Of a stretch of 36,511 nucleotides of DNA, positions 9,012-26,754 are shown piece after piece. The position numbers and the translations under genes are program-made. Origin of the DNA: a virus; the IMG/VR virus record IMGVR_UViG_3300027782_000183, positions 1 through 36,511 of that record, one strand, 5' to 3'. The number at the start of each line of letters is the position of its first letter. Position 1 is the first letter of the stretch. The notes beneath the pieces were generated by a model. That model saw only the letters and a list, made by a program, of their open reading frames with translations, did not search any database and was not told the DNA's origin.

Positions 9012-10118
9012 ATGAAACAATTAGTCATCATGCCCGGTGGGTTCCATCCTTTTCACGCAGGTCACCTAGCACTTTATCAGTCTGCTCAGCAGGCTTTTCC
9101 TGGTGCTGATGTCAAAGTGGCAGCTACCAACGACACTTCCGCTCGTCCATTTCCATTCAAACTAAAAGAAAAACTGGCACAGTTGGCCGGTGTGCCACCT
9201 GGTGATTTCTATCAAGTAAAGAGTCCATTCCGTGCAGATGAGATCACAAAGAATTATGATCCTGCAGACACACAGTTGATCTTTGTCCGCAGCAAAAAAG
9301 ACGCTGACAAACCACCTCGACCCGGTGGTATAAAGAAAGATGGCAACCCGGGATATCTGCAACCTATTTCTCGCAACATGGCACCCATGACTCAACATGC
9401 TTACATGGCTTATTTGCCCACAGTTACATTTGGTCCGGGCATGCAGTCAGCCACAGAGATACGCACAGCATGGCCATCACTGGATGAGCGTCGACGCATG
9501 GCCTTGGTCATGAGTCTGTATCCGCACACACAGAAGAATCCCAAACTGGCCAAGACTGTGGTCAAGATGTTGGACACTGCCATGGGCACACAAGTGGCAG
9601 AAGCCACAGGCGATGAGAGATTCGACAGTATAATGAGTAGGATTCGTCAAGAACCAACTATTCCTGACGCACAGATGCCGCCAACTGATGTAAAAGATCT
9701 ATATCATTGGGCAGTCAAACACCACAAGCCGTATCATAAAATCTTTGCCAAATGGGCCAACAGAGAAGGATACAGATCTGTCGCACCAGCATTACAGAAA
9801 GCAGGCAATTTAGACAGTGATGCTTTAGATTACTGGACTCCTGACGTTTGGAAACTGTGGTTTGGCCCTGATTCAGAAATGCCCCGTCACTGGAGCAAAG
9901 AGCGTGTGCCCGATGAATTGAGAGATTATCTCGAGACTGTGTTTGATGCATACGAAAATATATGGCAAGATTGGCCCAATGAATATCGTCAGATTGGTGA
10001 TCAAGGTGTGGCGGAAGAAGTCACACGCCAGATGAGCCAAGGCGGCCTGCGGGCCAGTTATCAAAACAAATACAATCAGCCCATGATGGAAGATTATTTG
10101 GACGAAGCCAGGTCGTAG
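9012..10118 (+). CDS. HxGH nucleotidyltransferase-like protein with phage-specific C-terminal region
   Basis: The N-terminus MPGGFHPFHAGH (about residues 7-18) is the HxGH nucleotide-binding motif, and SATEIRTAW (about 154) resembles the ISxTxIR signature. The first 190 residues are thus a cytidylyltransferase-like domain, paralogous in type to the gene at the left edge but otherwise different. The C-terminal 170 residues are of unknown fold, Trp-, His- and Pro-rich. They contain D-QGVAEE (330-336), a motif reused in the 943-residue protein at 29323, where it may be a processing site. The C-terminus ends in YLDEARS, also reminiscent of an xxE-A cleavage site. The substrate is unknown. A late-promoter-like motif lies six bases before the start. 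Confidence 0.75.
   Translation: MKQLVIMPGGFHPFHAGHLALYQSAQQAFPGADVKVAATNDTSARPFPFKLKEKLAQLAGVPPGDFYQVKSPFRADEITKNYDPADTQLIFVRSKKDADKPPRPGGIKKDGNPGYLQPISRNMAPMTQHAYMAYLPTVTFGPGMQSATEIRTAWPSLDERRRMALVMSLYPHTQKNPKLAKTVVKMLDTAMGTQVAEATGDERFDSIMSRIRQEPTIPDAQMPPTDVKDLYHWAVKHHKPYHKIFAKWANREGYRSVAPALQKAGNLDSDALDYWTPDVWKLWFGPDSEMPRHWSKERVPDELRDYLETVFDAYENIWQDWPNEYRQIGDQGVAEEVTRQMSQGGLRASYQNKYNQPMMEDYLDEARS
10002..10017 (+). repeat. 16-base repeat encoding QGVAE, copy 1
   Basis: CAAGGTGTGGCGGAAG is identical to 30967-30982 in the 943-residue protein gene, 21 kb away. Shorter matches (TGTGGCGGAAG or TGTGGCAGAAG) occur at 18427 and 15902 in the giant gene. All encode VAE in the same frame at a module boundary. 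Confidence 0.7.
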
Positions 10119-11114: not shown

Positions 11115-14100
11115 ATGAATTTCCATGATCTTGACAACTTTAATCTCGCCGATGCTGTAAAATTCCATAGCCGTCTGAACCCTAGAATATGGGGTTCAGA
11201 CGAGCACTTGTTGCCTGAAGTGCAAGAAAAACTTAAGGCAATAGCAGCAGATTTCCAAGAGTTCCTGGGCGTGGATGATCTCAAAGTCCAGGACATCACC
11301 ATCTCGGGCAGCAACGCTGCCTATAGTTATACACCCAATTCAGACATTGATCTGCACCTAGTGGTAGAAATGCCTGACGATCCTGTGTATCAGGAATTGT
11401 TCAATGCCAAAAAGTATCAATATAATGATGAACATGACATCCGGATCGGTGGTGTGCCTGTAGAACTGTATGTGCAGCCTGCGGATCAGAAACATGTGAG
11501 CCAAGGCATCTACAGCATAAAGAATAACGACTGGAATCAAGTTCCACAACGCAGACGAGCCCAGGTAGATGATTCATGTGTGCAGAACAAAACAGCAGAT
11601 CTTGATGCTCGTATCCATGCCGCTGTTGAATCCGGTGATGCAGATGCTATCAATCGACTTTGGGATCGTATCAAAGACATGCGTCAAACTGGCCTGGAAC
11701 AGAATGGTGAGTTTGGCTGTGAGAACATCACTTTCAAACTGTTGCGGAACATGGGTTGCATTGGCCGATTAAAGGATGCCAAGACAGCCATTCGTGATCG
11801 TGAACTCAGTCTAGAACAATCAAACAAGCCTCGCAAGCGTGTGAACTATGGCATGCGTGATTACTGGTATCCGGGCACTGCGTATGCTGGCCAAGACCAT
11901 CCTGCCGGCACCGAAACAGAACAAGTGGATGAAGGCGAACAAGTTCCTAGTTGGAACTTATCTACTGCTTCGGCCAAACCCCGAGTTGTAGTGGTTGGAG
12001 ACAGCATCGCCGTGGGCATCGCACAGGCTGCCGGTCTACCATACGAAGCAAAGGTGGGTCGGAGCACTAAACAAATACTTGATGCGGCTGCTTCAAATCC
12101 TCAAGTGCAAGGTGCTGATTTGGCCATCGTAAGTGCAGGAACCAACGACTATCCTATCCGAAATGGTGGTGTGAACCCTAACCCTCGGGCCACAATAAAC
12201 AATATCAGTCGTATAAGAGATGTTCTTGGCGCTAAACAATATGTTTGGATATTGCCCTTCAATAGAAGTGCTGCCCAAGATGTGATGTCGGCCATTGGTG
12301 GGGATGCCTATGTAGACCTTGCTGATGTATCAACCCCGGACAGAGAAGGATTACATCCTACAAATTATAAAGCAGTAGCCAAAGCTGCCTTGTCGAAATC
12401 TGTGAAAGAAGACATTACAGAAAATGTGAATCCAGATCAATTAAAAAAGATACTGCATCGTTTCTATAAGAGTTGTGTAAGCAAGTTAGAGTTAGAGGAT
12501 CCACCTCGACTGCGTTTGGAAACCACTCCGGACTGGAGCAGAGAAAATGGCAGTTTTGGTCAATACGATCCTGAAACAAATACACTGATCTTGGCCACAT
12601 CGGGTCGCCATGTGTTGGATATACTTCGAACCATGGCACATGAGATGACACATCGTCAACAAGATGAGAAGAGTCCGTTGCCCGCAGATGCCGGTGAGAC
12701 TGGTAGCCCTTGGGAAGATCAAGCCAACGCCATGGCCGGTCGTATCATGCGACAATGGGCCGAAGAACAGCCCGACATGTTTGATGGTGCCACCCTGGAA
12801 GAAGCATCGGGCTACATCCCTACAAAGAAACAAGCCAAAGATCCACGATTCGTTATGGCTTTAACTAAAGATGTGCGTCCCGGTGCTGTGGGCAAAGAAG
12901 CCAACAAACTGGGATTACAAACTGATAGCCAAGGGCATCCTGCCCTGCTCACAGCAGGATTACAGAAGATGTTGCGTGAGTTCAAAGAGCAGGATCTGTT
13001 TGAGATCAACATGGGCGGTAAGAATCTGCGAAAAGAAGCAGCCAAGACCGGTGCCCTAGCTGGCATGGAGTTTGAGATGATCGTGCCCAACACCCAAGGT
13101 GAAGACGACGGTGACCTGGAACCTGACTACGATCAAGATGACCGAGCCAGCAGCCCCAGAGACATCCGAGACTTTTTCTATGACGGTGATTACAACAGCC
13201 GCAGAAGTGTGGACAGCCTTATCGACTCAATGATGAATGATTTCTCTGAATGGCAATCGGAAGAATTCGACACTCGTTGGGAGTCAGACAGCGAAGAATT
13301 CATTTACCCCTATATCAAAGAAAATATGGATGACGATGAGGTCAGACACTTGTTGGATCTAGAAGAGGAAGACCCCATCGGCCGCCAAGAATATCTACTG
13401 GTTGCGGACATGATCGCTACCTCACAAATACAACCTTGGTATGAGGACGCACAGGAAAGTGCCAGAGAAGAGTTCTACGAAAACGACGACGCGTTTGAAG
13501 AATGGTTGGGGGATTCAGGCCTAACCATGATGAGTGATATTGAGAATAGATATTCCGGCGACATCAACTGGCCACACTATCGCAGCGTCAGCAGCGGCGA
13601 AGGAGCCTCGGTACAGGAAACAGCAGAATCATTCAGTGCTGCTGTGGGCCGCCCGGCCAGAGCCAGTGATAGTTATCACGAGTATGGACAAGAGCGTCCA
13701 GCACCGGGCAAGAACTTCTATGTGGTGGAACCCGATGGCAGCCTGGAACCAGATGATCCCGATGATGCTGGCCTGGAGTTTGTGAGCCCGCCCTTGCCCA
13801 TAGATCAAATAATGTCGGACCTGAACAAAGTCAAGAAGTGGGCAGATCAAAACGGCTGCTACACCAACAGTTCAACTGGGCTACACATCAACATCTCAGT
13901 GCCCAACTATGATCTCGACCGACTGGACTTTGTGAAGCTGGCCCTGCTCATGGGCGACGAATATGTGCTACAGCAGTTTGGTCGTGCCAGCAACACCTAT
14001 GCCCGGAGCGCCATGAAAAAAGTGCGTGATCATGTGCAAAAACGGCCTTACGAAGCAAAATATTTACTGGACAAGATGAAAGGCCACATGGGCGAACTGG

Positions 14101-17100
14101 CCAGCAAGGCCATACATTCTGGTATCACAGACAAATACACTTCAATCAACACCAAAGATGGCCATGTGGAGTTCCGCAGTCCCGGCGGTGATTGGCTGGG
14201 CGACAACTTCAGCATGATCGAAAACACTCTGTTGAGATTCACTGTGGCGCTGTCGGCGGCCATGGATCCCAAGGCCTATCGTGAAGAGTATCTGAAAAAA
14301 CTATACAAGATCCTGGCACCCAACGGTGAAAAAGATCCTCTAGCCGTATTTGCCAAGTATGCAGCAGGCGAACTACCTGCCACTGCACTAAAGAGTTTTG
14401 TGCGGCAAGCACAGGCGGACCGCAAGGCCAAGAAGTCCGGTGAGGCCATCGTGAATGGTCATCGCTGGAGAGTGTCATTAAAGCCTGAACTGGGCGGCGG
14501 CGTGGTGGAAGTGATGGCCACTGACCCTATAGATGCCAAGAAGCAGGCCATAATACAGCAGCCCAACTGGAGATTTGTGGATAACGATGCAATGACCATC
14601 GAACGCCTGGATGAACCCGCAGCAGGTGCCAGCACCACAGGACCACATCCGCAGGGCCGCGGCAGACCCAATGATCCCAACGGGCGACTGGCTATTGTGA
14701 ATAGAGATGATCCTTTAGTGTTTGCCTACGGTCACGGAACACCAGGACCTGCACCCAACTACTTGTTTAGATTCACCTTGCCAGATGGCTACAGCCAAGC
14801 ACAACTTCGTGCTGTGATGGCGGCCTGGGCTGCTCGAGAAAATGCAAATGCCGCAGATTACATGGTAGTGGATACCACGCAGTTTCTAGCACCGGCGGCA
14901 CCCGAATCCAGTAGTGTGCAATGGAACATCATTGATAGAAACAACAACCTTGTGCATACTTTCTGGAACAGAAATGTTCAAAGAGATGCCAATGCCGCAG
15001 CACATGAATGGTTGATGGCCAATGATGAATTGCCTTCAGTCAATATGCAAGGACCATTTGATGTTATCCCGGCAGCCGGATCGCAGGTGGCATTCATTCC
15101 AGGCAGCACCCTGGATCTGCAACGCCAACGCCAGGCTGCTGATGTAGCGGCCAACACCAGACGCTGGGCGGACTATGAAGCCAGTCAAGCACCCACACCC
15201 ACTCCTGTGCCCGGAGTGCAAGACATTGACATAGAGATCCCCCCGGCACAGACACAGTGGGAAGTATACGATAGAAGCACTGACCGACCAGTGTTCAGGA
15301 TGTATGCTGCCGATCAAGCCGAAGCCTGGCGTAAAGGGCAGGAATGGTTGGCCAACTATGCCCGCATGACTCCGGACCAACCAATCTATGGGATTGATTA
15401 CTCAGTGAGACAGAGCACAGCACCTGTGACCGAAAGCAGAGAGATCACCAAACTTCACAAACTGGATTCAGTGCTGGAAAAGTGCATTGAAATGATCCGC
15501 CGTGGCCACGAAACCAATCCAGAAAAGTATGGGCGTGTGGCTGCTTGTTTGATCGACAACAAAAACAATCACACCTATGCTATCAACATGCCCGGGCCCG
15601 AAGGAACACGCCGGCATGCTGAACGCATGGCCATAGCCAAGCATTTGAAACGCCACGGTCGTATCGGACCCAATGCCATCATGGTCACCACGCTGAGTCC
15701 TTGTGTGAATCACATGGATGAGCGGTATGGCGAGAGTTGCACTGACCTGTTATCAGACTATGGCATTGAAAAATGCTATGCAGGTTGGCAAGACCCCACA
15801 CAGCATCCTGCCGAAGACTATCCGTTCAATCTGCAGGTCACTGACAACGCTGACATCTTCAACACTTGTAAGGACATAGCAGCCAGTTTCTTACCACAGA
15901 CTGTGGCAGAAGGCGTAAATGATTATCTATGGCATGGATCTAGAAACAAGCACGATGTTCTATATCCTCATCAGGCAGTCGATACCGGTGGTAAAGAAGA
16001 AAGTAATAAAAATGCTGTATACGCTACTCCCAATGCCAAATTTGCCATAGCCATGGGATTAACTACTCCTGGATCAGATAATGCAATGTTTCCCAACGAT
16101 CCACAAATGGTTTTATTCAAGGGCGGTATTAGAAAAGGTGAGATGGTTTATTTGCACAAGGTTCCCAAAGATTTATTCATAAAACACAATGGCCGAGAGT
16201 GGTATTCCAAACCGGAAGTTAAAGAAGTTAAGCCTATAGAAGTAATAGCAGTTCCTGTAGATAAATGGTTGCATTTGATTAGACAAGCAACGCCAAAAGA
16301 TTTTGAGTTGCGTAAGAAGTATATGAAGAAAAATGTAGATGAAGCCTACACCGGACCACCAATGAAGTTCTTGAAGCCTGGTGAACTGTCAGGCGGTTAT
16401 AGCCCGCAACAGATGCAGGCCATGGGGTTCAAACAAACTGCGAATGGCACTTGGTATATCCCCATGAATACATGGCAACGACTGGTCTCGGGCGGACAGA
16501 TCCGAGAAGGGGCCCCTCAACCAGGTGAATCATCTGGAGTTGCTGCACAATTCAGACCCGATGCTAACATCCAGACAAAAGAAATGACACTGAATCAAAT
16601 ACTTAATACTGTTAAAGGTATTCCGTATGTAAACAATGTCATTGATGATTGGGATGCCAAAGATCACAGTTGGGGTGTTACTAAAAAAGTCATCGAATAC
16701 GCAAAATATCTTAAAAATAATCCACAATCTGTTGCCAACTTGCCCCCATTGGTAGTCATAGACGGAAACTTAAACGACGGTGCTCATAGACTCTCTGCTA
16801 TAAATCTATTACAACAAAGAATGGATCCTACAAATCCATATTGGAAAAAAGTTCCATTGAAGGTAAACTTTGGCACATCAGCAGATGTGGTGCCAAAACA
16901 AGTTCGTGCCCCTGCTGTGAACAATGTTGTGGTTCCACCGCCTGCTACAAGCAATAAACTCACTGGGCGAGCACCTGCTGGTCCTGATCAGATCACTCAT
17001 GCCTACAGAAACATGAGCCCTGCAGAGTTACAACATGCACTAGAGACTGGGCATTTCCAGGCCAATCCCACTCCAGGAAGAACACCAGGCTGGACTCCTG

Positions 17101-18758
17101 ATCAAAAGTTTTGGTCATCAGGCGATGAACAAGGGCATTTTGGGCGAGACTGGAAAAATGCAGATGACAAGGTCAAAGTGCGTGTGCCTATAGATCGGGT
17201 GCCTACTAACACAGCAGTTGATGTGAGCCATGCCCAGGTCCTGGATAAAACCACTGGCAAGTGGACTACGGCGATGCCAAGATCATCTTCTGCCGCAACA
17301 AGATTAAGTAGACTTGGCGGAGGTGATGATGTTAATACTTTTGGATTTGGTAGCCCGGCTATAGATCAACAATATATCGAAGATCTCAAAAAAGAGATTG
17401 CTAAAAATCCCGGTGATCCATACAATAAGAACTTCCAGGATGAGATTGACCGTATACAGAAAAATATGGCTACTACACAACTGATGAGAGAAGGAGCCGC
17501 TGGACCGTTAGCATCCATGGTGTCGCAGGACCAGGCCGAACGCAACGAATATAAACAGTTTGTTCAATCAAAAGCAGGTGGCGATTGGGATAAAGGAGCA
17601 CAGATGTATGCTCAACTCAAAGGCCGCCCCAGTGATGATATATTTGGTGATTCCGCAAATCAAGATCGATTCATGAAGATGACCTTTGATTTCGATACAT
17701 TCACAGAAGATGATTGGCATAACTATTGGTTGATGGCACAGCATTGCGATAAGAATCGAGATTTCCAACGACAAGCACTGGCAGCAATAGAAAAATATCA
17801 AGGGCAGGATCACCTGAACTATCGTTATCTTGCAGATCGCATCAGTTGCGGCACCACCGGAACACAGAAATATGGCACACAGAACGGGTGTAATATCGAT
17901 AGTGTGCAGGAAAACTTTGCCGACGGCAAGCATCCTGAAGACAAAGGTGATTCAAAACGCCATCATGTGCCCACCAAATCCTCAGTGAGCAATCTACGCC
18001 GGTTTGCCAAGAGCCATTCAGGCCGGGCAGCACAGTTGGCACATTGGATGGCCAACATGAAATCAGGCAAGCGGAAGAAGACCAACGAGGAGGCCATGAT
18101 GGATGTTATCAGCCCCGGATTTGTGGCCGACTGGGATGACGATGCTGGCCAGATAAGATATACCAAGAACAATGTGGTTATTCCATATGGCACAGCAGAA
18201 TACAATGCTGCTCGAGCACAACATGTAGAATACAGAAAAAATCTAAAATACAACAAGTTGAAACAGACCACGGACCCGATTTATAATCAAATTCGTGGTG
18301 CATTTGAAAAAGAACAGCAATCACCTACCAAGCCAGGTGCTGCTATCGCTGTGCCGCAAGAACTATTCCCACAAGACAAGGTCAAACCTCCGGTCAAATA
18401 CGATGATCCAACCGACGACGATTTTGTGGCGGAAGACTATGGAAGCATCAACGAGGACACTGTGGCCACTATCAATCTGGGCGATATCATTGTGAACCTG
18501 GACGATCATGCTCTGGATCGACAACAACAGCGTGGTATTGACGACAAATCATTTGATTCTGCCATACGCAAACTCAAACTGCCTCGAGTGATAAAACAGA
18601 TGTCTCAACTGGCGGTGGGCAATAGATTTTATGTGCTGGATCACACTACCAATGTGGCCCTGGGCATGAGAAAGATTGGTGATGTCAAGTATGTGTTGAA
18701 GACCGTGTATGTGGGTCGCCCTGCTGACTATAACATAGCAGAAATCATAACAGTATGA
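11115..18758 (+). CDS. Giant 2547-residue multidomain 'polyvalent' protein: NTase, SGNH hydrolase, zincin, amidoligase, deaminase, ParB-like and others
   Basis: Domains in order: pol-beta-type nucleotidyltransferase (GS at 65-66, DxD at 77-79); SGNH/GDSL hydrolase (GDS 295-297, GTND 342-345, EGLH 411-414); zincin metallopeptidase (HEMTH 509-513, likely third ligand E534); amidoligase-like enzyme (GMEFE 650-654, LEFVSP 887-892, GLHIN 922-926); two short repeats (about 1275 and 1375, QWxxxDR); cytidine deaminase-like domain (HAE 1501-1503, PC 1529-1530, C1542); an LWHGS domain that may be ADP-ribosyltransferase-like (1600-1740); ParB-like DGAHR (1888-1892); a second possible ADP-ribosyltransferase-like block (AYRNMSP, 1963 on); a DUF6624-like block ending YGTQ (2253-2256); a basic phage module (2281-2325); and a DUF4258-like C-terminus (DHALDRQQQRGI). 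[ILVM]xE sites resembling prohead-protease sites separate the modules. The frame is intact over 7.6 kb. Multidomain proteins of this kind (polyvalent proteins) are thought to enter the host with phage DNA. The outer domains are more certain than the two ADP-ribosyltransferase calls. Confidence 0.85.
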   Translation: MNFHDLDNFNLADAVKFHSRLNPRIWGSDEHLLPEVQEKLKAIAADFQEFLGVDDLKVQDITISGSNAAYSYTPNSDIDLHLVVEMPDDPVYQELFNAKKYQYNDEHDIRIGGVPVELYVQPADQKHVSQGIYSIKNNDWNQVPQRRRAQVDDSCVQNKTADLDARIHAAVESGDADAINRLWDRIKDMRQTGLEQNGEFGCENITFKLLRNMGCIGRLKDAKTAIRDRELSLEQSNKPRKRVNYGMRDYWYPGTAYAGQDHPAGTETEQVDEGEQVPSWNLSTASAKPRVVVVGDSIAVGIAQAAGLPYEAKVGRSTKQILDAAASNPQVQGADLAIVSAGTNDYPIRNGGVNPNPRATINNISRIRDVLGAKQYVWILPFNRSAAQDVMSAIGGDAYVDLADVSTPDREGLHPTNYKAVAKAALSKSVKEDITENVNPDQLKKILHRFYKSCVSKLELEDPPRLRLETTPDWSRENGSFGQYDPETNTLILATSGRHVLDILRTMAHEMTHRQQDEKSPLPADAGETGSPWEDQANAMAGRIMRQWAEEQPDMFDGATLEEASGYIPTKKQAKDPRFVMALTKDVRPGAVGKEANKLGLQTDSQGHPALLTAGLQKMLREFKEQDLFEINMGGKNLRKEAAKTGALAGMEFEMIVPNTQGEDDGDLEPDYDQDDRASSPRDIRDFFYDGDYNSRRSVDSLIDSMMNDFSEWQSEEFDTRWESDSEEFIYPYIKENMDDDEVRHLLDLEEEDPIGRQEYLLVADMIATSQIQPWYEDAQESAREEFYENDDAFEEWLGDSGLTMMSDIENRYSGDINWPHYRSVSSGEGASVQETAESFSAAVGRPARASDSYHEYGQERPAPGKNFYVVEPDGSLEPDDPDDAGLEFVSPPLPIDQIMSDLNKVKKWADQNGCYTNSSTGLHINISVPNYDLDRLDFVKLALLMGDEYVLQQFGRASNTYARSAMKKVRDHVQKRPYEAKYLLDKMKGHMGELASKAIHSGITDKYTSINTKDGHVEFRSPGGDWLGDNFSMIENTLLRFTVALSAAMDPKAYREEYLKKLYKILAPNGEKDPLAVFAKYAAGELPATALKSFVRQAQADRKAKKSGEAIVNGHRWRVSLKPELGGGVVEVMATDPIDAKKQAIIQQPNWRFVDNDAMTIERLDEPAAGASTTGPHPQGRGRPNDPNGRLAIVNRDDPLVFAYGHGTPGPAPNYLFRFTLPDGYSQAQLRAVMAAWAARENANAADYMVVDTTQFLAPAAPESSSVQWNIIDRNNNLVHTFWNRNVQRDANAAAHEWLMANDELPSVNMQGPFDVIPAAGSQVAFIPGSTLDLQRQRQAADVAANTRRWADYEASQAPTPTPVPGVQDIDIEIPPAQTQWEVYDRSTDRPVFRMYAADQAEAWRKGQEWLANYARMTPDQPIYGIDYSVRQSTAPVTESREITKLHKLDSVLEKCIEMIRRGHETNPEKYGRVAACLIDNKNNHTYAINMPGPEGTRRHAERMAIAKHLKRHGRIGPNAIMVTTLSPCVNHMDERYGESCTDLLSDYGIEKCYAGWQDPTQHPAEDYPFNLQVTDNADIFNTCKDIAASFLPQTVAEGVNDYLWHGSRNKHDVLYPHQAVDTGGKEESNKNAVYATPNAKFAIAMGLTTPGSDNAMFPNDPQMVLFKGGIRKGEMVYLHKVPKDLFIKHNGREWYSKPEVKEVKPIEVIAVPVDKWLHLIRQATPKDFELRKKYMKKNVDEAYTGPPMKFLKPGELSGGYSPQQMQAMGFKQTANGTWYIPMNTWQRLVSGGQIREGAPQPGESSGVAAQFRPDANIQTKEMTLNQILNTVKGIPYVNNVIDDWDAKDHSWGVTKKVIEYAKYLKNNPQSVANLPPLVVIDGNLNDGAHRLSAINLLQQRMDPTNPYWKKVPLKVNFGTSADVVPKQVRAPAVNNVVVPPPATSNKLTGRAPAGPDQITHAYRNMSPAELQHALETGHFQANPTPGRTPGWTPDQKFWSSGDEQGHFGRDWKNADDKVKVRVPIDRVPTNTAVDVSHAQVLDKTTGKWTTAMPRSSSAATRLSRLGGGDDVNTFGFGSPAIDQQYIEDLKKEIAKNPGDPYNKNFQDEIDRIQKNMATTQLMREGAAGPLASMVSQDQAERNEYKQFVQSKAGGDWDKGAQMYAQLKGRPSDDIFGDSANQDRFMKMTFDFDTFTEDDWHNYWLMAQHCDKNRDFQRQALAAIEKYQGQDHLNYRYLADRISCGTTGTQKYGTQNGCNIDSVQENFADGKHPEDKGDSKRHHVPTKSSVSNLRRFAKSHSGRAAQLAHWMANMKSGKRKKTNEEAMMDVISPGFVADWDDDAGQIRYTKNNVVIPYGTAEYNAARAQHVEYRKNLKYNKLKQTTDPIYNQIRGAFEKEQQSPTKPGAAIAVPQELFPQDKVKPPVKYDDPTDDDFVAEDYGSINEDTVATINLGDIIVNLDDHALDRQQQRGIDDKSFDSAIRKLKLPRVIKQMSQLAVGNRFYVLDHTTNVALGMRKIGDVKYVLKTVYVGRPADYNIAEIITV

Positions 18759-19724: not shown

Positions 19725-19729
19725 ATGAA
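19713..19729 (+). repeat. 17-base leader repeat, copy 1 (copy 2 at 20200-20216)
   Basis: AAGGTGATGTAAATGAA spans the ribosome-binding site and first codons of the gene at 19725. It recurs identically at 20200-20216 before the gene at 20212. Similarity continues through the encoded tags (MKSxEFITE followed by xxRxLEE), suggesting duplication of leader plus tag. Confidence 0.75.
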
Positions 19730-20195
19730 GTCAAGCGAATTTATCACAGAAGAAATCCGACAGTTGGAAGAAAATCTACACCAGTGGTTCAAAGAAAAAT
19801 GGGTGAGATTTGGCCCTGACGGCAAGATTCGTGGCGACTGTGCTCGTGGAAGTGAATCAGAAGGCAAGCCCAAGTGTTTGCCGCAGGCCAAGGCGCACGC
19901 ACTGGGCAAGAAAGGGCGTGCGTCAGCAGCAGCAAGAAAGCGTAGACAAGATCCTAATCCTGATCGTCGCGGTGCTGCTATCAATGTGCCTACCAAGAAA
20001 CAGGTCAAGGAAGATCACGATATATGTCCGCATTGCGGCGGTGCCATGTATCCTGAACACATGATCACAGAAAAGAAAGATGCTTGTTACTATAAAGTCA
20101 AGGCTTCGGCAAAAGTATGGCCGTCGGCTTATGCTTCGGGTCGCTTGGTGCAGTGTCGCAAAAAAGGCGCAGCCAACTATGGTAACAAGTCCTAA
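19725..20195 (+). CDS. Capsid-targeted-like basic protein with DUF5872-like segment
   Basis: The N-terminus MKSSEFITE-E matches the T4 internal-protein tag pattern with an ITE cleavage site at residues 7-9. Residues about 24-70 (WFKEKWVRFGPDGKIRG..., SEGKPKCLP, KKGRASAAARKRR) resemble a short basic domain found in many phages (DUF5872-like, from memory). CPHCGGAMYP (about 105-114) is half of a zinc ribbon. The C-terminus KVKASAKVWPSAYASG...CRKKGAANYG is a second small module seen in T4-like phages. The protein is highly basic, fitting a DNA-associated internal protein. The ATG follows the previous stop with no gap, behind AAGGTGATGT. The leader and tag are nearly repeated before the next gene. 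Confidence 0.7.
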   Translation: MKSSEFITEEIRQLEENLHQWFKEKWVRFGPDGKIRGDCARGSESEGKPKCLPQAKAHALGKKGRASAAARKRRQDPNPDRRGAAINVPTKKQVKEDHDICPHCGGAMYPEHMITEKKDACYYKVKASAKVWPSAYASGRLVQCRKKGAANYGNKS

Positions 20196-20199
20196 CGGA

Positions 20200-20216
20200 A
20201 AGGTGATGTAAATGAA
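20200..20216 (+). repeat. 17-base leader repeat, copy 2
   Basis: Identical to 19713-19729. Here it is mostly non-coding, lying after the stop of the preceding gene, while copy 1 encodes the end of the upstream protein. This supports a duplication of the start region and not chance codon use. Confidence 0.75.
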
Positions 20217-20919
20217 ATCGCATGAATTTATAACTGAAAGCGTCCGCCACTTGGAAGAAAAGTGGAGTCAAAAATACAAAAGCAGTATCAACTGCTCACA
20301 TCCAAAAGGGTTTAGTCAAAAGGCCCACTGTGCTGGCAAGAAGAAACACAACGAATCAGTTGAGATGGAAATGGTGTGTGAAATGTGTGGCATGTGCGAG
20401 ACACATGGTGATCATTCAAGAGACAATCTAAATGAAAAATGTTGGGACACACACAAACAAGTTGGTATGAAAAACAAAGGAGGACGAATGGTTCCTAATT
20501 GTGTACCAAAGGAATCAATCACAGAAGATCTTGACCCCGATCAACAGTTTGATATCATAGAAGAAATGGTCATGGAACTAGCAGAGGCACATGGTGTTGA
20601 TGCTGAACAGATCTGGGAAGACTTTGAATCCGTAGACGACGAAGAACTGTTTGAAACAGCAGCCTGGCGACGAAGCGCAGGCAAGAGCAAAAAGGGCGGA
20701 CTCAATGCCAAGGGTGTGGCCAGTTATCGCAGAGAAAACCCCGGTAGCAAACTACAGATGGCTGTAACAACCAAGCCGTCGAAACTCAAGCCCGGATCAA
20801 AAGCAGCCAAGCGTCGTAAATCATTCTGTGCCAGGATGGGTGGTGTAAAAGGTCCAATGAAAAAGCCCAATGGCAAACCCACACGCAAGGCATTGGCATT
20901 GAGGAAGTGGAACTGCTGA
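20212..20919 (+). CDS. Capsid-targeted-like mosaic protein with several short Cys/basic phage modules
   Basis: It begins MKSHEFITE-S, a near-perfect internal-protein tag. Short modules follow: WSQKYKSSINCSHPKGFSQKAHC (about 17-45), a CEMCGMC cluster (about 61-67), CWDTHKQVGMKNKGGRMVPNCVPK (about 81-105), an acidic helix-rich middle (about 108-150), and a basic C-terminal block AAWRRSAGKSKKGGLNAKGV...KSFCARMGGVKG ending LRKWNC. The last block matches a widespread phage domain I recall as DUF6321. Its strong positive charge and paired Cys suggest nucleic-acid or zinc binding. The protein looks assembled from units reused among T4-like phages. Internal ITE-D (about 106-109) could be a second processing site. 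The stop overlaps the next ATG (TGATG). Confidence 0.75.
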   Translation: MKSHEFITESVRHLEEKWSQKYKSSINCSHPKGFSQKAHCAGKKKHNESVEMEMVCEMCGMCETHGDHSRDNLNEKCWDTHKQVGMKNKGGRMVPNCVPKESITEDLDPDQQFDIIEEMVMELAEAHGVDAEQIWEDFESVDDEELFETAAWRRSAGKSKKGGLNAKGVASYRRENPGSKLQMAVTTKPSKLKPGSKAAKRRKSFCARMGGVKGPMKKPNGKPTRKALALRKWNC

Positions 20920-22415
20920 TGAGAGCAAGGGAATTTCTACTTGAGTATAATACTGCAGAGAGCCAGGACTTGTCACGGATCAGTCGTGCGGTAGCCGACT
21001 ATCTCACGGCAAATCCCAAGGCAATGATATCAGGTAACATAATCAACTTGCGTCAGATCCCAATGCCTGCAATGTCAACTCCTGTGGGGCAAGCACTAGT
21101 TGATGCAATTGAAGTAGCAATGACCGGAGATGCGGGCATAGGCAACAGCCCGCATAGCCTCACAAAGAAATTAGCAACAGCCGATCCTAATTTTAGATTC
21201 AGTGGTGACCCAGGTGTCAGTAAGCCATATACTTTGGCCAGAGACGATGCTGCCAGAGCCCCCGGGCAGGTGGCCAAACCAGTTCAATCAGCTGTGTCCA
21301 CCGGAGGAAAATTACGAATACAATTAAACACACAAGTTCTGCACCTAGGCAATTCCACAGGTCGGTTTGCGCTTCAATCAAGTATGGCTCACGAATTAAA
21401 GCATCAGGCAGATGCTATAAAAGGCATGGATTTAGGTAAACTAAAGAAAAGTATAAGCCGGAACAATTGGTTCAAACGGGCACTTGCTGATTCGGATGAA
21501 TACGAAAAGTCGTTGTTAGATTGGTATAAACGAAATCTTGACGATGCGGTGCAGAGAGTGGATCCAACAAGAAAAGCAGAAGTGGACCGCCTGTTCCAAC
21601 AGAGCTGGGACAAACACCAAGCTGACATTGCCAACAAAAAAAAGTCATACAATCCAAAACTCCCTGTAGAATACAACCGTAAAGTTTATCTAGGTGACCC
21701 CACGGAGGTCAGTGCAAGATTTGAGGAAGCAATGGGAGACGTTGCCAAGAATATAAAAAAAACAACCACTAACGATGAAATAATCCCTCTCATCAAGGAA
21801 TCGTTTAAAAAGTTTGACTTGTATGATACAACATCCCCAACCGGGTGGGAAGATGCACAAAAAAATCCTGCGTTTAAAAAACTGTTGACCAATTCGTATA
21901 AATTGATACAAGCCGAGATCGCTAATCCAGTGATAGGTACTAACGCACAGTATTCATTGAGTAGAAGAATTTTTGTAGGATTGATGGATGCAGTAAAATT
22001 CGTCGGCAGTGAGTTTTATGATATGTTCCGGTACGCAGCCAACATGATTCCCAAAGCCATATCCGAACCTGTGGCCGCAGCGGCAGGCAAGGCCATGTCA
22101 GCAGCGGCTCCTTTTGTTCGCGCAGCGGCTCCTGTTGTTCGTGCAGCCACAAGCCTGCCAGTGGCATTGGCCACGCAGACAGATAATCTAGGCCCTGTAG
22201 TTCCTGACGAAGGACCATACGCCGGAAGCGACTTGGACATGACAGGCCGACCATGGACACCCCAAACTATAAACTCATACAATAAAGGAATAAAATTCTA
22301 CAAAGAGTGGGAACCATGGACTCCCGAAAACAAAGGCATGTTCCAACGCGAAGTAGACAAACTGATAGCCAAAGGCATCACAGGTGAAGATTTAAGAAAG
22401 TATCTCAAACTATGA
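20919..22415 (+). CDS. Capsid-targeted-like putative zincin metallopeptidase (HELKH)
   Basis: ATG 20919 overlaps the preceding stop and gives MRAREFLLE-Y, the internal-protein tag. At residues 158-162 lies HELKH, in the context SSMAHELKHQADA, a typical HExxH zinc-binding helix. Glu residues around 263-270 (TEVSARFEEA) are candidates for the third ligand. The central part is helical and charged. About residues 385-425 form an Ala/Pro/Val-rich segment with a 21-base tandem repeat (AAAPFVR, AAAPVVR), likely a linker, and the C-terminus is a small helical domain ending DLRKYLKL. No membrane segment is evident. Substrate unknown. If packaged and injected it could cut host proteins or act on peptidoglycan crosslinks. 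Confidence 0.65.
   Translation: MRAREFLLEYNTAESQDLSRISRAVADYLTANPKAMISGNIINLRQIPMPAMSTPVGQALVDAIEVAMTGDAGIGNSPHSLTKKLATADPNFRFSGDPGVSKPYTLARDDAARAPGQVAKPVQSAVSTGGKLRIQLNTQVLHLGNSTGRFALQSSMAHELKHQADAIKGMDLGKLKKSISRNNWFKRALADSDEYEKSLLDWYKRNLDDAVQRVDPTRKAEVDRLFQQSWDKHQADIANKKKSYNPKLPVEYNRKVYLGDPTEVSARFEEAMGDVAKNIKKTTTNDEIIPLIKESFKKFDLYDTTSPTGWEDAQKNPAFKKLLTNSYKLIQAEIANPVIGTNAQYSLSRRIFVGLMDAVKFVGSEFYDMFRYAANMIPKAISEPVAAAAGKAMSAAAPFVRAAAPVVRAATSLPVALATQTDNLGPVVPDEGPYAGSDLDMTGRPWTPQTINSYNKGIKFYKEWEPWTPENKGMFQREVDKLIAKGITGEDLRKYLKL
22101..22142 (+). repeat. Two tandem 21-base units encoding AAAPxVR
   Basis: GCAGCGGCTCCTTTTGTTCG and GCAGCGGCTCCTGTTGTTCG, each followed by one base, lie back to back in frame. 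A partial third copy begins at 22143. They extend the Ala/Pro/Val linker of the metallopeptidase-like protein. Confidence 0.7.
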
Positions 22416-22615
22416 GAGCCAGAGAATTCCTCCGCGAAGAATTACTTACAGGATTCCATGTGTATGGTGCGTCTGTGCGGGTGAAAAATCCCGCGTATAC
22501 TACCAGTGTAGATGTGGCCATATTTGCCAAATCACCAGCCATGGCTCGATTGCTACTGCAAGCTCAATATGGCAAAGACAGCATAGTGACCAATGTGCAT
22601 AGGATAGACGAATGA
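22412..22615 (+). CDS. Small capsid-targeted-like protein, 67 residues
   Basis: The tag MRAREFLRE-E is identical for its first seven residues to that of the preceding protein. The mature part, about 58 residues, predicts strand-strand-helix-strand: FHVYGASVRV, TTSVDVAIFA, SPAMARLLLQAQYG, SIVTNVHRIDE. This compact alpha/beta layout with a long helix after two strands resembles small single-domain phage proteins, but no family is recognised. Start and stop overlap both neighbours by ATGA, so it is translated in the same tightly coupled chain. It is of the size of the small T4 internal proteins. Confidence 0.7.
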   Translation: MRAREFLREELLTGFHVYGASVRVKNPAYTTSVDVAIFAKSPAMARLLLQAQYGKDSIVTNVHRIDE

Positions 22616-23091
22616 GAGCACAAGAATTCATCACTGAACTAAAGATAGACAACAAGCATGGACTGGGTGCTGTGCCGCACAATGCTGATGTCGATTACTT
22701 TGGCTTACGCACGGTCATGCGACCCAGCACATTCCTCAAACTCAGTTTGCCCTTGGACAAGAACAGTCCCGACGAACGCGAAACCATCAATCATCTAAAG
22801 AAGCAGATCAACGATCAAGGATTTGGAGCACCATTCCTTACTATCGCAGTGCCACAGGAGTGGGAAGACGGTGACTTCAGCATGGAAGCCAAGGTGCGTG
22901 ATCATGACGGGCGACACAGGATGTATGCCATACAAGAAGAAAACAATGATGCACCTGTGGAAACACACATATTCATTCCGCACTTCCGCCGCAGAGACAT
23001 CACTGATCCTATCATCAAGCAGTTACGCAATGGTGTGTTGAGTCAGAATGGGCACTTCATAGGTGGTCCGATATTTGGAGATGCTAAATGA
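22612..23091 (+). CDS. Capsid-targeted-like protein with ParB/Srx-type DGRHR motif
   Basis: The tag is MRAQEFITE-L. The body begins with a block containing GLGAVPHNADVDYFG and a strand-rich segment (PFLTIAVP). It then has DHDGRHRMYAIQE with DGRHR at residues 99-103, followed by PVETHIFI. A D-G-x-H-R loop followed by a helix is the signature of ParB/sulfiredoxin-fold domains, which bind CTP or ATP and in some members act as nucleases or phosphotransferases. The similar DGAHR module occurs in the giant protein at 1888-1892. No helix-turn-helix for DNA binding is seen, so it is not a classical partition protein. Overlaps both neighbours by ATGA. Confidence 0.7.
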   Translation: MRAQEFITELKIDNKHGLGAVPHNADVDYFGLRTVMRPSTFLKLSLPLDKNSPDERETINHLKKQINDQGFGAPFLTIAVPQEWEDGDFSMEAKVRDHDGRHRMYAIQEENNDAPVETHIFIPHFRRRDITDPIIKQLRNGVLSQNGHFIGGPIFGDAK

Positions 23092-24335
23092 GAGCAAGAG
23101 AATTTATACGTGAAGAAGTTATAAAAGCCGACATAGATTGGCAACAATGGGCCGCGTCCATGGCCCTGGCGGCCATTGAGCAAGATTTACCTAGAGGTTT
23201 AGACGCTATCATGTATCTCGGAATCATAGGAGATCCTAGCGGACTAAACATGGAGGTAAGATTAAACCGTCCTGCAAACATAGGGTTGGACTTTAGTAAA
23301 CAAGGTCAAGGTTATCTCTCGGGTAGTGCTGTAGGTCAACATTTTATAGGTGGCGTAGGCATCGCGCAGAACGGAGACCCAGATTCAGTAAAAGATTATG
23401 ATATACTGCTAAATTTTAATGGTGACTCAGTTGACAAGTGGGTAAAGAAAGAAAATATGTACAGCACCTGGATAGGCCACGAACTACAACACCGAGGTAT
23501 GGAAATAGTAGCAAATATCGGCGCTATCCAGGATAAAATACCTGAAAGATCAAAATTTGTTTTTCAGAACGGCAACCGATGGAGGACACAAATACCAGAG
23601 ATAGGGTTCGATGCCAAAAAACTCGACACGTCAAAAGGGGACTACAGAGCCTCTCGAGCGGTCAGCGATTCCCACTTAGAACACATGTTATTATATTCTC
23701 TGTTTCCTTCAAAATCATCTTTAGATAATCCCCATAGTCCACAGTATGCAGAACAGGTGAAGAAATATAGACAAATATATTTTGATATAGAAGGTGCTGC
23801 CAGGGCCTATGTATTGAGTTATCCTATTCCTCCAGGTTCGTTGGCAGCTCTAAGAAACGAACTTGAGGGCAAGGCTCCTGACGGCTACAAGTTGGTGATT
23901 GGTAAGGATCTAAGAGGTAGACCAACGTATGCATTACAATCAGAAAACCCAGCAGCGGTACAGGCAGCAGCAGCAATAGCAGCAACACCAGCAACGGTAG
24001 CAACCGCAGCGAAACCAGCAACCGCAGCGAAACCAGCAACACCAGCAACCGCAGAAAAGCCAGTAGCAACAGCAGCAGCAACAGCAGCGCCAGCAGCGCC
24101 AGCAGCACCAACAGCACCAACAGCACCAACAGCGCCAGCAGCAGCAGAAAAGCCAACAGCAGCGACAACACCAAAAACTTACACAGTACAACGCGGTGAC
24201 ATCCTGGGTCGTATAGCTCAAAGATTCTACAAGGGTCGATTGAGTGATTTACTTCGAGCCAATCCGCAATTTACTTCCAATGGTCGTAATCCCAATTTGA
24301 TATTCCCCGGTGATAAAGTCATCATCCCAGACTAA
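23088..24335 (+). CDS. Capsid-targeted-like putative metallopeptidase with LysM domain
   Basis: The tag MRAREFIRE-E is followed by an N-terminal domain with WIGHELQHRGMEI, an HExxH zinc site at residues 131-135. About residues 285-362 are a long Ala/Thr/Pro/Lys linker. The C-terminus (about 364-415, KTYTVQRGDILGRIAQRFYKG ending FPGDKVIIPD) is a clear LysM domain, which binds N-acetylglucosamine-containing peptidoglycan. The combination suggests a virion-carried protein that reaches the cell wall and may cut peptides there. The zinc enzyme role is inferred from the motif alone. The start overlaps the upstream stop (ATGA). Confidence 0.75.
   Translation: MRAREFIREEVIKADIDWQQWAASMALAAIEQDLPRGLDAIMYLGIIGDPSGLNMEVRLNRPANIGLDFSKQGQGYLSGSAVGQHFIGGVGIAQNGDPDSVKDYDILLNFNGDSVDKWVKKENMYSTWIGHELQHRGMEIVANIGAIQDKIPERSKFVFQNGNRWRTQIPEIGFDAKKLDTSKGDYRASRAVSDSHLEHMLLYSLFPSKSSLDNPHSPQYAEQVKKYRQIYFDIEGAARAYVLSYPIPPGSLAALRNELEGKAPDGYKLVIGKDLRGRPTYALQSENPAAVQAAAAIAATPATVATAAKPATAAKPATPATAEKPVATAAATAAPAAPAAPTAPTAPTAPAAAEKPTAATTPKTYTVQRGDILGRIAQRFYKGRLSDLLRANPQFTSNGRNPNLIFPGDKVIIPD
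23947..24172 (+). repeat. Low-complexity Ala/Thr/Pro-coding repeat region
   Basis: The region is built from GCAGCA, ACAGCACCA, GCAGCGCCA and AAACCAGCAACCGCAGCG-type short repeats that encode an Ala/Thr/Pro linker with AEKP spacers. The AACCGCAGCGAAACCAGC segment occurs twice in tandem. The composition differs from the neighbouring gene body and is likely to expand or contract by slippage. Confidence 0.85.
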
Positions 24336-24350
24336 ACAAGAGAATACACT

Positions 24351-24905
24351 ATGAGATCACAAGAATTTGTCACTGAAGGCGGGAAAGCCGAGCCCGGACC
24401 AACCGACGCCCGCAAATGGGCGCCAGATCAGCCTGTGCCTGTCGGATGGTTGCAAGCGTGGAAAGGTGATGCACGTACTGGCGAAGTAGAAACTCTGCCC
24501 CTTTCTTTTAATCCAAATGGACAAATGACCAAACTATTGTCTGCATACAAATGGGCGAGAGATAAAAAACTGCTACCTGTGATACCGCCTGAAATTTGGG
24601 CAATGTTGGCAATGGTCGAAGGCAGAGAAGATTTTGGATACAACGGCCTGGTGCTCGACAATCGTCCTCAACAACGAAAGTTTTTGGATCAAGTGGTGCA
24701 GGCAGGAATGACTGACTATTTAAATCAGTATTGGATTGCCTTCTTGCATGAGAAAATCGCAACGGCTCAGCGAACAGGCATACCATTTTATCGAGTATGG
24801 AATGGCTCGTCGATGTATCAAGCACGGTTTAATGCACAAGCCGACGCTTTAAAAAATCCTAAAAATAAACCATTCTTAGATTGGTTCAAACAACAATTGG
24901 CATAA
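24351..24905 (+). CDS. Capsid-targeted-like protein of unknown function
   Basis: The tag is MRSQEFVTE-G, with valine at the cleavage-site position where the others have Ile or Leu. The rest is helical and Trp-rich: DARKWAPDQPVPVGWLQAWKG, LLSAYKWARDKK, PPEIWAMLAMVEGREDFGYNG (about 84-104), then long helices to the end (PFLDWFKQQLA). The WAMLAMVEGREDFGYNG stretch has a lysozyme- or transglycosylase-like feel (catalytic-type Glu near a G-x-x-x-F-G-Y loop) but I cannot support a family. Its neighbours, a LysM protein and peptidoglycan-binding proteins, make a wall-related role plausible. A 15-base gap separates it from the upstream gene. Confidence 0.6.
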   Translation: MRSQEFVTEGGKAEPGPTDARKWAPDQPVPVGWLQAWKGDARTGEVETLPLSFNPNGQMTKLLSAYKWARDKKLLPVIPPEIWAMLAMVEGREDFGYNGLVLDNRPQQRKFLDQVVQAGMTDYLNQYWIAFLHEKIATAQRTGIPFYRVWNGSSMYQARFNAQADALKNPKNKPFLDWFKQQLA

Positions 24906-24909
24906 TATT

Positions 24910-25113
24910 ATGAGAGCACGAGAATTTACACGTAAGAAAAAGCCCGAACCACAAGAGCTAGATGAACTGAGCTTTCTAGGGTCACCCTGCACCAAGGATT
25001 GTTCCGGGCACAGAGCAGGATATTCGTGGTCTAAAGCCCGTGGCAACCGCACAGCAATGAGCCACAGCAACAGTTTCAACAATGGAGCAAGATTGGCCAG
25101 TCAGGGCAAATAG
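24910..25113 (+). CDS. Small basic protein with degenerate capsid-targeting-like start
   Basis: The N-terminus MRAREFTRKKKPEP keeps the MRAREF part of the tag but has lost the xxE cleavage residue. The rest (residues 25-67: SPCTKDCSGHRAGYSWSKARG..., SHSNSFNNGARLAS) is a short motif with CxxxC and His residues that I recall as common in T4-like phages, often as one module in larger proteins. It is basic and small and may bind nucleic acid. Loss of the site raises the question whether this protein is packaged uncleaved or is a degenerate copy. Confidence 0.65.
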   Translation: MRAREFTRKKKPEPQELDELSFLGSPCTKDCSGHRAGYSWSKARGNRTAMSHSNSFNNGARLASQGK

Positions 25114-25121
25114 AATAAATA
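25114..25121 (+). promoter_or_regulatory. T4-type late promoter-like motif AATAAATA
   Basis: AATAAATA, one mismatch from TATAAATA, lies in the 38-base gap just after a stop codon and 30 bases before the ATG at 25152. That gene has an AGGA ribosome-binding site at normal spacing. It is the best-placed late promoter candidate inside the tagged-gene array. Confidence 0.5.
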
Positions 25122-25151
25122 AAGAATGGATCACACTCTGAGGAACATTTT

Positions 25152-26753
25152 ATGAGATTAAAAGAATTTATCAAAGAAGCAGGGCGCAACGGCAGCAATG
25201 AATTTGACGCAGCACCCGGGGCTGCGCCTGCACAAACACCCGATTGGTTGAAAAAAGTTGGCAATTATCTCGGAAACAAAATAGGCCTTAAAGAACCTGT
25301 TTCTCTAGAACCCGGCGCACTACCAGTGGAACCAAAAAAATCTACTTACACAGGCATTGATCCTATAGTAAGACAACAAGCAGGACTTCCACCTGCTACT
25401 CATCAGGAGATTGATGCGTACATGAAAGCCAATCCTCCTGTAGTCGGTAATCTAGTCGGTCGTGATGGAAAACCTGTGCTCAGTGGTGGCGCTCTAGAAC
25501 TAGAACGAGCTGCTAGAGAAGCAGCACCAAGAGAGTTTTACCCTCCGCTTGAAAAAGCAGCAGTGCCGCCAGCACCGGCAGCTGGTATGAGTGATGCTGA
25601 AATCGCCGCCAACGCACAACGAATTAAAACTCCTAGAGAACAAGGCAATTATCTTAACAAGGATTTTGATGATCGTTCATTTGATAGGAGTCCAGTTGCA
25701 CCCGGTGGATCCGAAGCACCGAAAACAAAGGTCGCTGCACCATCCAGCGCAACCGTGCAGGGGGGTGCGGCAGGTGCAGACAGCCGCCTTTCAAAGGCAC
25801 CGCCCGTAGCAGTAACACAACCAATTTCAACAACAACAATAAAAACAGAACCAATCGCCGCGGTTGACGTCGATCAAACAGACGCCAACGGTCGAAAATT
25901 AAATCGTCTCACAGGAAAAGTTGACGGTGAAAATACCGAGCAAGATGATGCTGCACTAGCAAGAATCAAAGACTTGTCTCAAGATCCTAAATTAGATACA
26001 AGCAAAGCAAAATCAGGAGACCAAACTGTTAACATCGGTGGTAAAAGCGGAGACGCAGACGCTGATGTCGGCCCTGTAGTGGAACCTAATAAAGATCAAA
26101 AGAAAAAACCCAGTGATACAAAATCATCAGTCAACGGGGGAATCAACATAAGTCCAACCGTGTGGGCATATGCCATCAACATGGGACTTATCCAAAACGG
26201 CAAATTAGATATTGAAAGAATCAAAAAATTCCAAAGGTCTCAAAGCATCGAGGACGACGGCATCATTGGAAAAGATACTTCCAATGCTATCCTGTCTGTT
26301 GGAAATGCCTATCGGGGTGCAGGAACAGGTCGTGGTGATTCGGGCAATCCCGGAGGTACACCAATCAATGTAGATATGCCAAAACAGATAGGATATGTAG
26401 AGCCGTTGCCCGGTGTCAAAGACAGCAAGGGTCGCCAAGTATGGAAAAAGGCCGACGGCGTTCTTGCAGGATTTGATCCGTATGAACGCAGGATGTATCG
26501 CATAGGTAATGTATATAAATTGATGCGAGATCCTAACGCCGGGGCAGAGACCGGCAATGGCAAGCTACAGCCCATTGGCAAAACCCACGAGGGACTCACC
26601 ATATATCGATATGCCAACGGCAGATTCGGAGCATGGGATGCAGACAATCGAAAGATGATACCCATAGACGCACCAGCATCGCAAGCAACTGTTGCAAAAG
26701 AATCTTCTGATATGCAACGCATGAGATTACTGGCAGGATTGACTGGAAAATAA
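25152..26753 (+). CDS. Capsid-targeted-like protein with peptidoglycan-binding domain
   Basis: The tag MRLKEFIKE-A is followed by a long disordered region (about residues 12-325) rich in Ala, Pro, Gly, Asp and Lys. Around residues 330-390, GGINISPTVWAYAINMG and IKKFQRSQSIEDDGIIGKDT match the PG_binding_1 pattern (helix bundle with F-Q-x-x-x-x-x-x-D-G-I-x-G). A C-terminal region of about 120 residues has repeated short strands and Trp/Tyr residues. The end, ESSDMQRMRLLAGL, resembles C-termini I recall from other phage internal proteins. It would bind the cell wall. No catalytic domain is recognised. A late-promoter-like motif and ribosome-binding site precede it. Confidence 0.7.
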   Translation: MRLKEFIKEAGRNGSNEFDAAPGAAPAQTPDWLKKVGNYLGNKIGLKEPVSLEPGALPVEPKKSTYTGIDPIVRQQAGLPPATHQEIDAYMKANPPVVGNLVGRDGKPVLSGGALELERAAREAAPREFYPPLEKAAVPPAPAAGMSDAEIAANAQRIKTPREQGNYLNKDFDDRSFDRSPVAPGGSEAPKTKVAAPSSATVQGGAAGADSRLSKAPPVAVTQPISTTTIKTEPIAAVDVDQTDANGRKLNRLTGKVDGENTEQDDAALARIKDLSQDPKLDTSKAKSGDQTVNIGGKSGDADADVGPVVEPNKDQKKKPSDTKSSVNGGINISPTVWAYAINMGLIQNGKLDIERIKKFQRSQSIEDDGIIGKDTSNAILSVGNAYRGAGTGRGDSGNPGGTPINVDMPKQIGYVEPLPGVKDSKGRQVWKKADGVLAGFDPYERRMYRIGNVYKLMRDPNAGAETGNGKLQPIGKTHEGLTIYRYANGRFGAWDADNRKMIPIDAPASQATVAKESSDMQRMRLLAGLTGK

Positions 26754-26754
26754 T

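Follow-up and report, generated by a model that had tools for sequence, protein, structure and literature searches.

Prohead-protease-like sites at the module joints of a giant phage protein, a candidate cargo polyprotein

In phage T4 the published cut motif of the prohead protease gp21 (S77) is L/I-X-E, its substrates include IPI-III, Alt, gp22, gp67, gp68 and gp23, and the short N-terminal tag, the capsid targeting sequence (CTS), combines a targeting part (residues 4 and 7) with a processing part (residues 8 and 10), an Asp at position 10 being inhibitory to processing (PMC9026906). Internal cuts of T4 core proteins break up the scaffold, while the retained cargo mainly loses terminal propeptides. 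The divergent T4-type proteases of phiKZ and SPN3US cut after x-x-E at several sites per protein, and the identified gp245 cleavages yield N-terminal propeptides, except for the protease's own cut (PMC10052503, PMC5694885). Polyvalent proteins of phages and conjugative elements carry many unrelated effector-like domains on one polypeptide, are shuffled between elements and have been likened to polyproteins, with release proposed to occur through embedded zincin or assemblin-like peptidases (Iyer et al. 2017, PMC5512222); DarB of phage P1, a polyvalent protein of ~250 kDa, is packaged whole into the head (PMC9024508). In the T4-type Campylobacter group II phages short DNA repeats at module borders promote rearrangement, the repeat regions being long and almost all extragenic and the moved units being blocks of genes (PMC4546147).

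Here, a 36.5-kb IMG/VR fragment (36,511 nt, IMGVR_UViG_3300027782_000183; the window) was analysed, in which a giant ORF (11115-18758, plus strand), open throughout, encodes a protein of 2547 aa (P0001). We consider it quite probable, from sequence comparison, that this giant is a cargo polyprotein cut in its linkers, at [ILVM]-x-E, by a T4-type prohead protease (Peptidase_S77). The system shares with T4 the cut motif, two-part N-terminal tags and, in relatives of the giant, a T4-type protease and capsid protein, but cuts at the giant's internal sites would part folded enzymes carried on a single chain, a module polyprotein for which phiKZ and SPN3US offer no counterpart. At least two disparate effector-like domains, as in polyvalent proteins, are present (deaminase and amidoligase above the Pfam cut-off; NTase, SGNH-like and zincin-like domains in addition), one of them again a zincin, but the giant's release sites would be those of a prohead protease acting in trans. 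The DNA repeat found in the window and in relatives differs from those of the Campylobacter phages in being ~17 bp long, intragenic and in frame, and in encoding the presumed cut site. In the literature searched, no paper describing modular phage polyproteins with joints at protease sites was found.

Modules of the giant and placement of its sites

P0001 contains 30 [ILVM]xE sites, and 28.6 are predicted from its composition, a chance count as the sequence-only reading had expected. Since the number of sites alone is uninformative, all weight was put on their placement, and module borders were taken from data which that reading had not used. Viral contigs were scanned with the whole protein, with single modules and with one DNA repeat, which yielded ~400 loci (4.2 Mb; the scan with the ParB region, 3 loci only); across these, the modules of P0001 occur in 40 arrangements, singly or chained. 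The modules are as follows, a slash marking the presumed cut.

11115..11933, plus strand: module 1, nucleotidyltransferase-like (NTase), aa 1-273, PHROG 36119, end EQVDE/G (E273)
11934..12422, plus strand: module 2, SGNH/GDSL-like hydrolase, aa 274-436, end DITE/N (E436)
12423..12803, plus strand: module 3, zincin metallopeptidase-like, aa 437-563, end TLEE/A (E563)
12804..13004, plus strand: module 4, conserved ASGYIPTKKQ element, aa 564-630, end DLFE/I (E630)
13005..15434, plus strand: module 5, amidoligase region, aa 631-1440, end PVTE/S (E1440)
15435..15911, plus strand: module 6, cytidine-deaminase fold, aa 1441-1599, end TVAE/G (E1599)
15912..16343, plus strand: module 7, LWHGS domain, aa 1600-1743, end NVDE/A (E1743)
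16344..16508, plus strand: module 8, aa 1744-1798, end QIRE/G (E1798)
16509..17912, plus strand: modules 9-10, ParB-like, second ART-like block and helical block, aa 1799-2266, end SVQE/N (E2266)
17913..18455, plus strand: module 11, NFADGK basic module and tail, aa 2267-2447, end SINE/D (E2447)
18456..18758, plus strand: module 12, DUF4258-like C-terminal domain and stop, aa 2448-2547

Pfam matches were obtained for module 5 (Amidoligase_2, E=8e-7) and module 6 (dCMP_cyt_deam_1, E=5e-12), weakly for module 2 (Lipase_GDSL_2) and module 12 (DUF4258), and under the cut-off for module 3 (DUF6782, E=2e-4); scans against PDB and NCBIfam added nothing except the deaminase. Module 7 had no match in the Pfam scan and no relative in a search of bacterial and archaeal genomes or among cultured phages; by eye its LWHGS and VYATPN motifs look ADP-ribosyltransferase-like.

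Of the eight N-side homology breakpoints counted as well supported (seen in at least 6 loci each), seven have a site no more than 8 residues away, where circular shifts predict 1.4 (p=0.0008), so that the non-chance placement claimed by the sequence-only reading holds and the permutation of sites against homology-defined borders favours protease sites. When all 24 N-side breaks are taken, 12 lie near a site at 8 residues (4.3 expected, p=0.0008), and the effect is weaker at 3-5 residues (p=0.06-0.11). C-side breaks alone gave no significant proximity to sites, the breaks at about 1093, 1145, 1303, 2321 and 2345 have no site, and the raw permutation with all homology breaks in P0001 was only moderately significant, owing to spurious breaks from weak BLAST fragments.

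The supported borders are E273, E436, E563, E630, E1440, E1599, E1743, E1798, E2266 and E2447. The sequence-only reading had placed the giant's domain borders at prohead-protease-like sites, an interpretation that the comparisons support: the ORF and every glutamate it listed are present, and eight of its ten named borders are retained. The other two, E2126 and E2440, found no support, and E630 and E2266 had been overlooked. Its amidoligase unit (564-1440) keeps the border at E1440 but has to be split at 630, and its ParB/second LWHGS-type block (1799-2126) keeps its start after E1798 but extends to E2266. Almost no homologues cover E2126, which is placed between two helices modelled with fair confidence; E2440 lies inside module 11. 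No [ILVM]xE occurs between 1862 and 2125, which leaves the ParB-like and second ART-like blocks without a site between them.

Several borders are marked by the relatives themselves. Homology breaks near residue 444, at the start of module 3, in 70 loci, and at ~2264, next to E2266 (VQE/NFADG), in 104 loci. E630 (LFE/INMGG) is retained in 95% of homologues; the element of module 4 is preceded by LEE, VAE, LKE or MSE depending on context. At the E1440 joint an insertion of ~370 aa is found at VTE/ in L002. Natural deletions run from site to site: the giant of L036 lacks the SGNH module exactly from E273 to E436 (EQVDE/SVELDHLKKILHRFY), and that of L003 lacks the LWHGS module exactly from E1599 to E1743 (QAIAE/AYDGPQMKFL) as well as all of E1798 to E2266 (QIRE/NFADG). 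The linkers between NTase and zincin (P0001 aa 240-290) are in relatives often Gly-rich, GGDGGGGES[VIM]xE, or end in MFLxE.

In the AlphaFold model of the N-terminal half, low-pLDDT stretches at 231-288, 430-439 and 557-635 hold E273, E436, E563 and E630 between better-modelled domains, the fold of module 2 spanning 291-429 and being followed by the linker 430-439; mean pLDDT is only 60.8 and further low-confidence stretches exist. In the alignment-based model of the C-terminal half, mean pLDDT is 56.7 and not even the deaminase is well modelled; the quality being insufficient, its low-confidence stretches were excluded as evidence.

P0001 starts with MNFHDLDNFNLADA and has no canonical CTS tag M[RK]xxEF[ILV]xE, and for this reason it was not classed as a CTS internal protein of the T4 IPI-III kind; it would resemble one only in how its joints work. 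Its N-terminus, MNxxDL, is similar to MNIFELF and MILNEVY, with which small head genes of L052 and L053 begin. Tagged ORFs and further mosaic ORFs are found elsewhere in the window.

9012..10118, plus strand: second mosaic ORF, joints QVAE/ATGDERF (cut after 9602) and QGVAE/EVTRQ (cut after 10016)
19725..27516, plus strand: clustered ORFs, each bearing a CTS-like tag M[RK]xxEF[ILV]xE/ at its N-terminus, with starts at 19725, 20212, 20919, 22612, 23088, 24351, 25152 and 26755
29323..32154, plus strand: third mosaic ORF, 943 aa, joints QGVAE/G and KVNE/LSTNKL

The 135-aa module between QVAE and QGVAE of the second mosaic ORF is exactly missing in L057 (MGTEVAE/QVTRQ), and the KVNE/LSTNKL joint of the third aligns with a tagged stand-alone ORF (L015:2257-3564, MKTTDFLTE/LSTDKL).

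Joint sites across the viral loci

Conservation at the orthologous joints of P0001, taken one by one, is not clearly above that at other sites, and tests over all loci were therefore used. An N-terminal tag M..E[F/L/I]xxE is carried by 308 ORFs, all (308/308) on the coding strand. Stand-alone ORFs of tag plus module include MRAREFITE/NFADG (L004:14370-14939), matching module 11, MKASEFIVE/TTIGHL (L005), MRAHEIINE/VFVG (L002) and MRANEFIVE/GVAE/GSEQKYLWHGS (L038). Tagged stand-alone copies exist for module 3 (L033:12253-12636 and the start of L008:10156), module 7 (L038:9995-10504; flanked on both sides by QGVAE in other loci) and module 12 (L005:3113-3490, L002:13074-13637), and a stand-alone deaminase (L032:10961-11470) begins at the start of module 6.

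The part of each sequence that follows the tag was aligned to internal stretches of other ORFs; with the tag excluded from the query, the P1 residue of the subject was not selected by the alignment. In 115 of 441 non-redundant junctions [ILVM]xE stands exactly at the mapped P1, a 13-fold excess over the average of 8.7 at other offsets, and the controls [ILVM]xD, [ILVM]xQ and [ILVM]xK gave 3 each. In the well-anchored set the match was exact in 94/227 and within 2 residues in 144/227 (control offsets 15 and 22). Tagged stand-alone relatives thereby show, in these alignments, that they begin exactly at internal module starts after [ILVM]xE. The whole tag is retained in 1 of the 94 joints; P3 (V, L, I, M) and P1 are kept and MR..EF is not, and the joints therefore correspond to the processing half of a T4 CTS and not to its targeting half.

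An all-against-all comparison of the ORFs gave 50 non-redundant indels of at least 35 aa, picked regardless of sites. A site is present at the empty joint in 44/50 (control windows, 30%) and at all three ends in 31/50 (control, 7%), and among distinct inter-module linkers 131 of 139 contain a site, with 62 expected from shuffled linkers. Aligned proteins agree in showing modules that shuffle as units with their ends at [ILVM]xE.

Aligned relatives with differing flanks were finally examined for selection. Glu at P1 is conserved in 78% at joints, P2 in 23% and the flanks in 50%, and the whole site is retained in 67% at joints vs 41% at other [ILVM]xE of the same proteins, figures that are descriptive and not probabilities because the comparisons share ancestry. 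These alignments show P1 Glu held by protein-level selection while neighbouring linker residues drift, and the expectation of the sequence-only reading that sites would be kept where linkers vary is borne out over all loci. By tags, indels, linkers and conservation alike, hydrophobic-x-Glu stands at the presumed cut positions, as in substrates of a T4-type prohead protease.

A DNA repeat at QGVAEG joints

Wherever QGVAEG, the most frequent joint, occurs, its coding DNA is an almost identical ~17-bp sequence, CAAGGTGTGGCGGAAGG, far beyond codon bias: in 128 distinct QGVAE contexts Ala is GCG in 92%, vs 7% in these ORFs overall. When one mismatch was allowed, 166 contexts were obtained with sharp conservation about -2 to +17 and the QGVAE frame in 165. 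The 15-bp core occurs twice in the window, vs 0.07 expected.

10002..10016, plus strand: DNA joint element CAAGGTGTGGCGGAA (15-bp core), in frame as QGVAE
30967..30981, plus strand: second copy of the joint element CAAGGTGTGGCGGAA, followed by GGC and read in frame as QGVAE(G)

In five loci (L120, L103, L016, L020, L033) 6-10 copies each of the dispersed in-frame repeat CAAGGTGTGGCGGAAGG(C) are found at joints, and some ORFs terminate with the repeat, as QGVAE and a stop codon, immediately ahead of the following gene (L247:3568, L279:4781: CAAGGTGTGGCGGAATAACATGG). Cassettes lie between direct repeats of the QGVAEG DNA (L026 vs L030; L355 vs L392).

Because this subset of joints is a fixed DNA sequence, recombination at joints encoding the cut site is the probable route of module exchange; the ~17-bp repeat would be a recombination point, and joints may double as DNA-level shuffling points. 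It could be asked whether the joints are recombination points only and have no protease role, VxE or LxE arising only because the repeat is translated or because fused tagged genes left a trace. The DNA-level fixation of the QGVAEG subset and the cassettes with flanking direct repeats speak for this explanation, which we nevertheless hold to be unlikely: most joints consist of unrelated DNA (GTGGATGAA, ATTACAGAA, CTGGAAGAA, ATCCGAGAA, others) yet keep hydrophobic-x-Glu, P1 is conserved next to a hypervariable P2, and the joint motif is the same as in the tags and the capsid protein. Fused tags should moreover leave MRxxEF, seen in the one joint of 94 given above, and a scar of fused tagged genes was ruled out since the targeting halves of the tags are not left at joints. 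As joints with unrelated DNA keep V/I/L-x-E, DNA-level and protein-level constraints act together. The fuller proposal of an in-frame shuffling system, in which CAAGGTGTGGCGGAAGG would serve both as recombination point and as prohead-protease site QGVAE/G, so that modules could be gained or lost and still be released separately, is one for which we see the chances as evenly balanced.

Protease, proposed processing and delivery

The window, being a fragment, holds neither protease nor capsid genes, and the protease was for this reason inferred from relatives. Three long relatives (G013, G015, G019) encode Peptidase_S77, the T4 gp21 family, together with a Gp23 capsid protein, and in G019 the giant has a relative as well, of the NTase-zincin-GYIP type (L042). 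The capsid proteins of the relatives carry YLSE/SVSAGAT, MLAE/NASAGAT and YLKE/NASAGST ahead of the mature region; by our own reading, LSE/S, LAE/N and LKE/N would sit where T4 gp23 is cut. The cultured cyanophages S-SRM01 and S-B68 have similar tags, MKNFHQFITE/A and MKNFNSFLTE/A.

As a cargo polyprotein, the product of the single gene would be one chain of some twelve modules, either enzyme-like or small, which would join the prohead core and be cut by the prohead protease at its joint [ILVM]xE sites during maturation; the separated effectors would then leave with the DNA and act in the host. If this is true, it explains how many injected effectors are carried in single giant genes, gives a reading rule for polyvalent phage proteins (cut at hydrophobic-x-Glu joints), makes dozens of effector modules available for expression with their precise limits, and means that one DNA repeat serves both gene shuffling and protein release.

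Delivery of the giant at full length, like DarB, or its processing after injection by its own zincin appears very improbable to us. P1 heads do take in giant proteins intact (PMC9024508), embedded zincins have been proposed as processing enzymes (PMC5512222), and module 3 is, weakly, zincin-like; but many ORFs that lack a zincin have joints of this motif too, the motif is that of the CTS tags, which in T4 are sites of the prohead protease, and the zincin is itself a shuffled, tagged module. That a loose motif was matched by chance to borders chosen post hoc, for which the expected site total and the two unsupported sites among the ten named could be cited, is contradicted by four internally controlled tests (tags, indels, linkers, conservation) and can practically be dismissed.

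Mosaic ORFs of the relatives include a second class of N-termini, M[NI][LI]x[ED]LF, for example MNLHSLFENVAE and MNLNELFSNK (L213, L234, L256, L372, L371, L103, L120), which may be another head-targeting tag. In the 345-kb contig G019 one in-frame TAA breaks the gp23-like capsid gene (L053:5249-6466), for which a sequencing error, an intron or recoding are alternative explanations.
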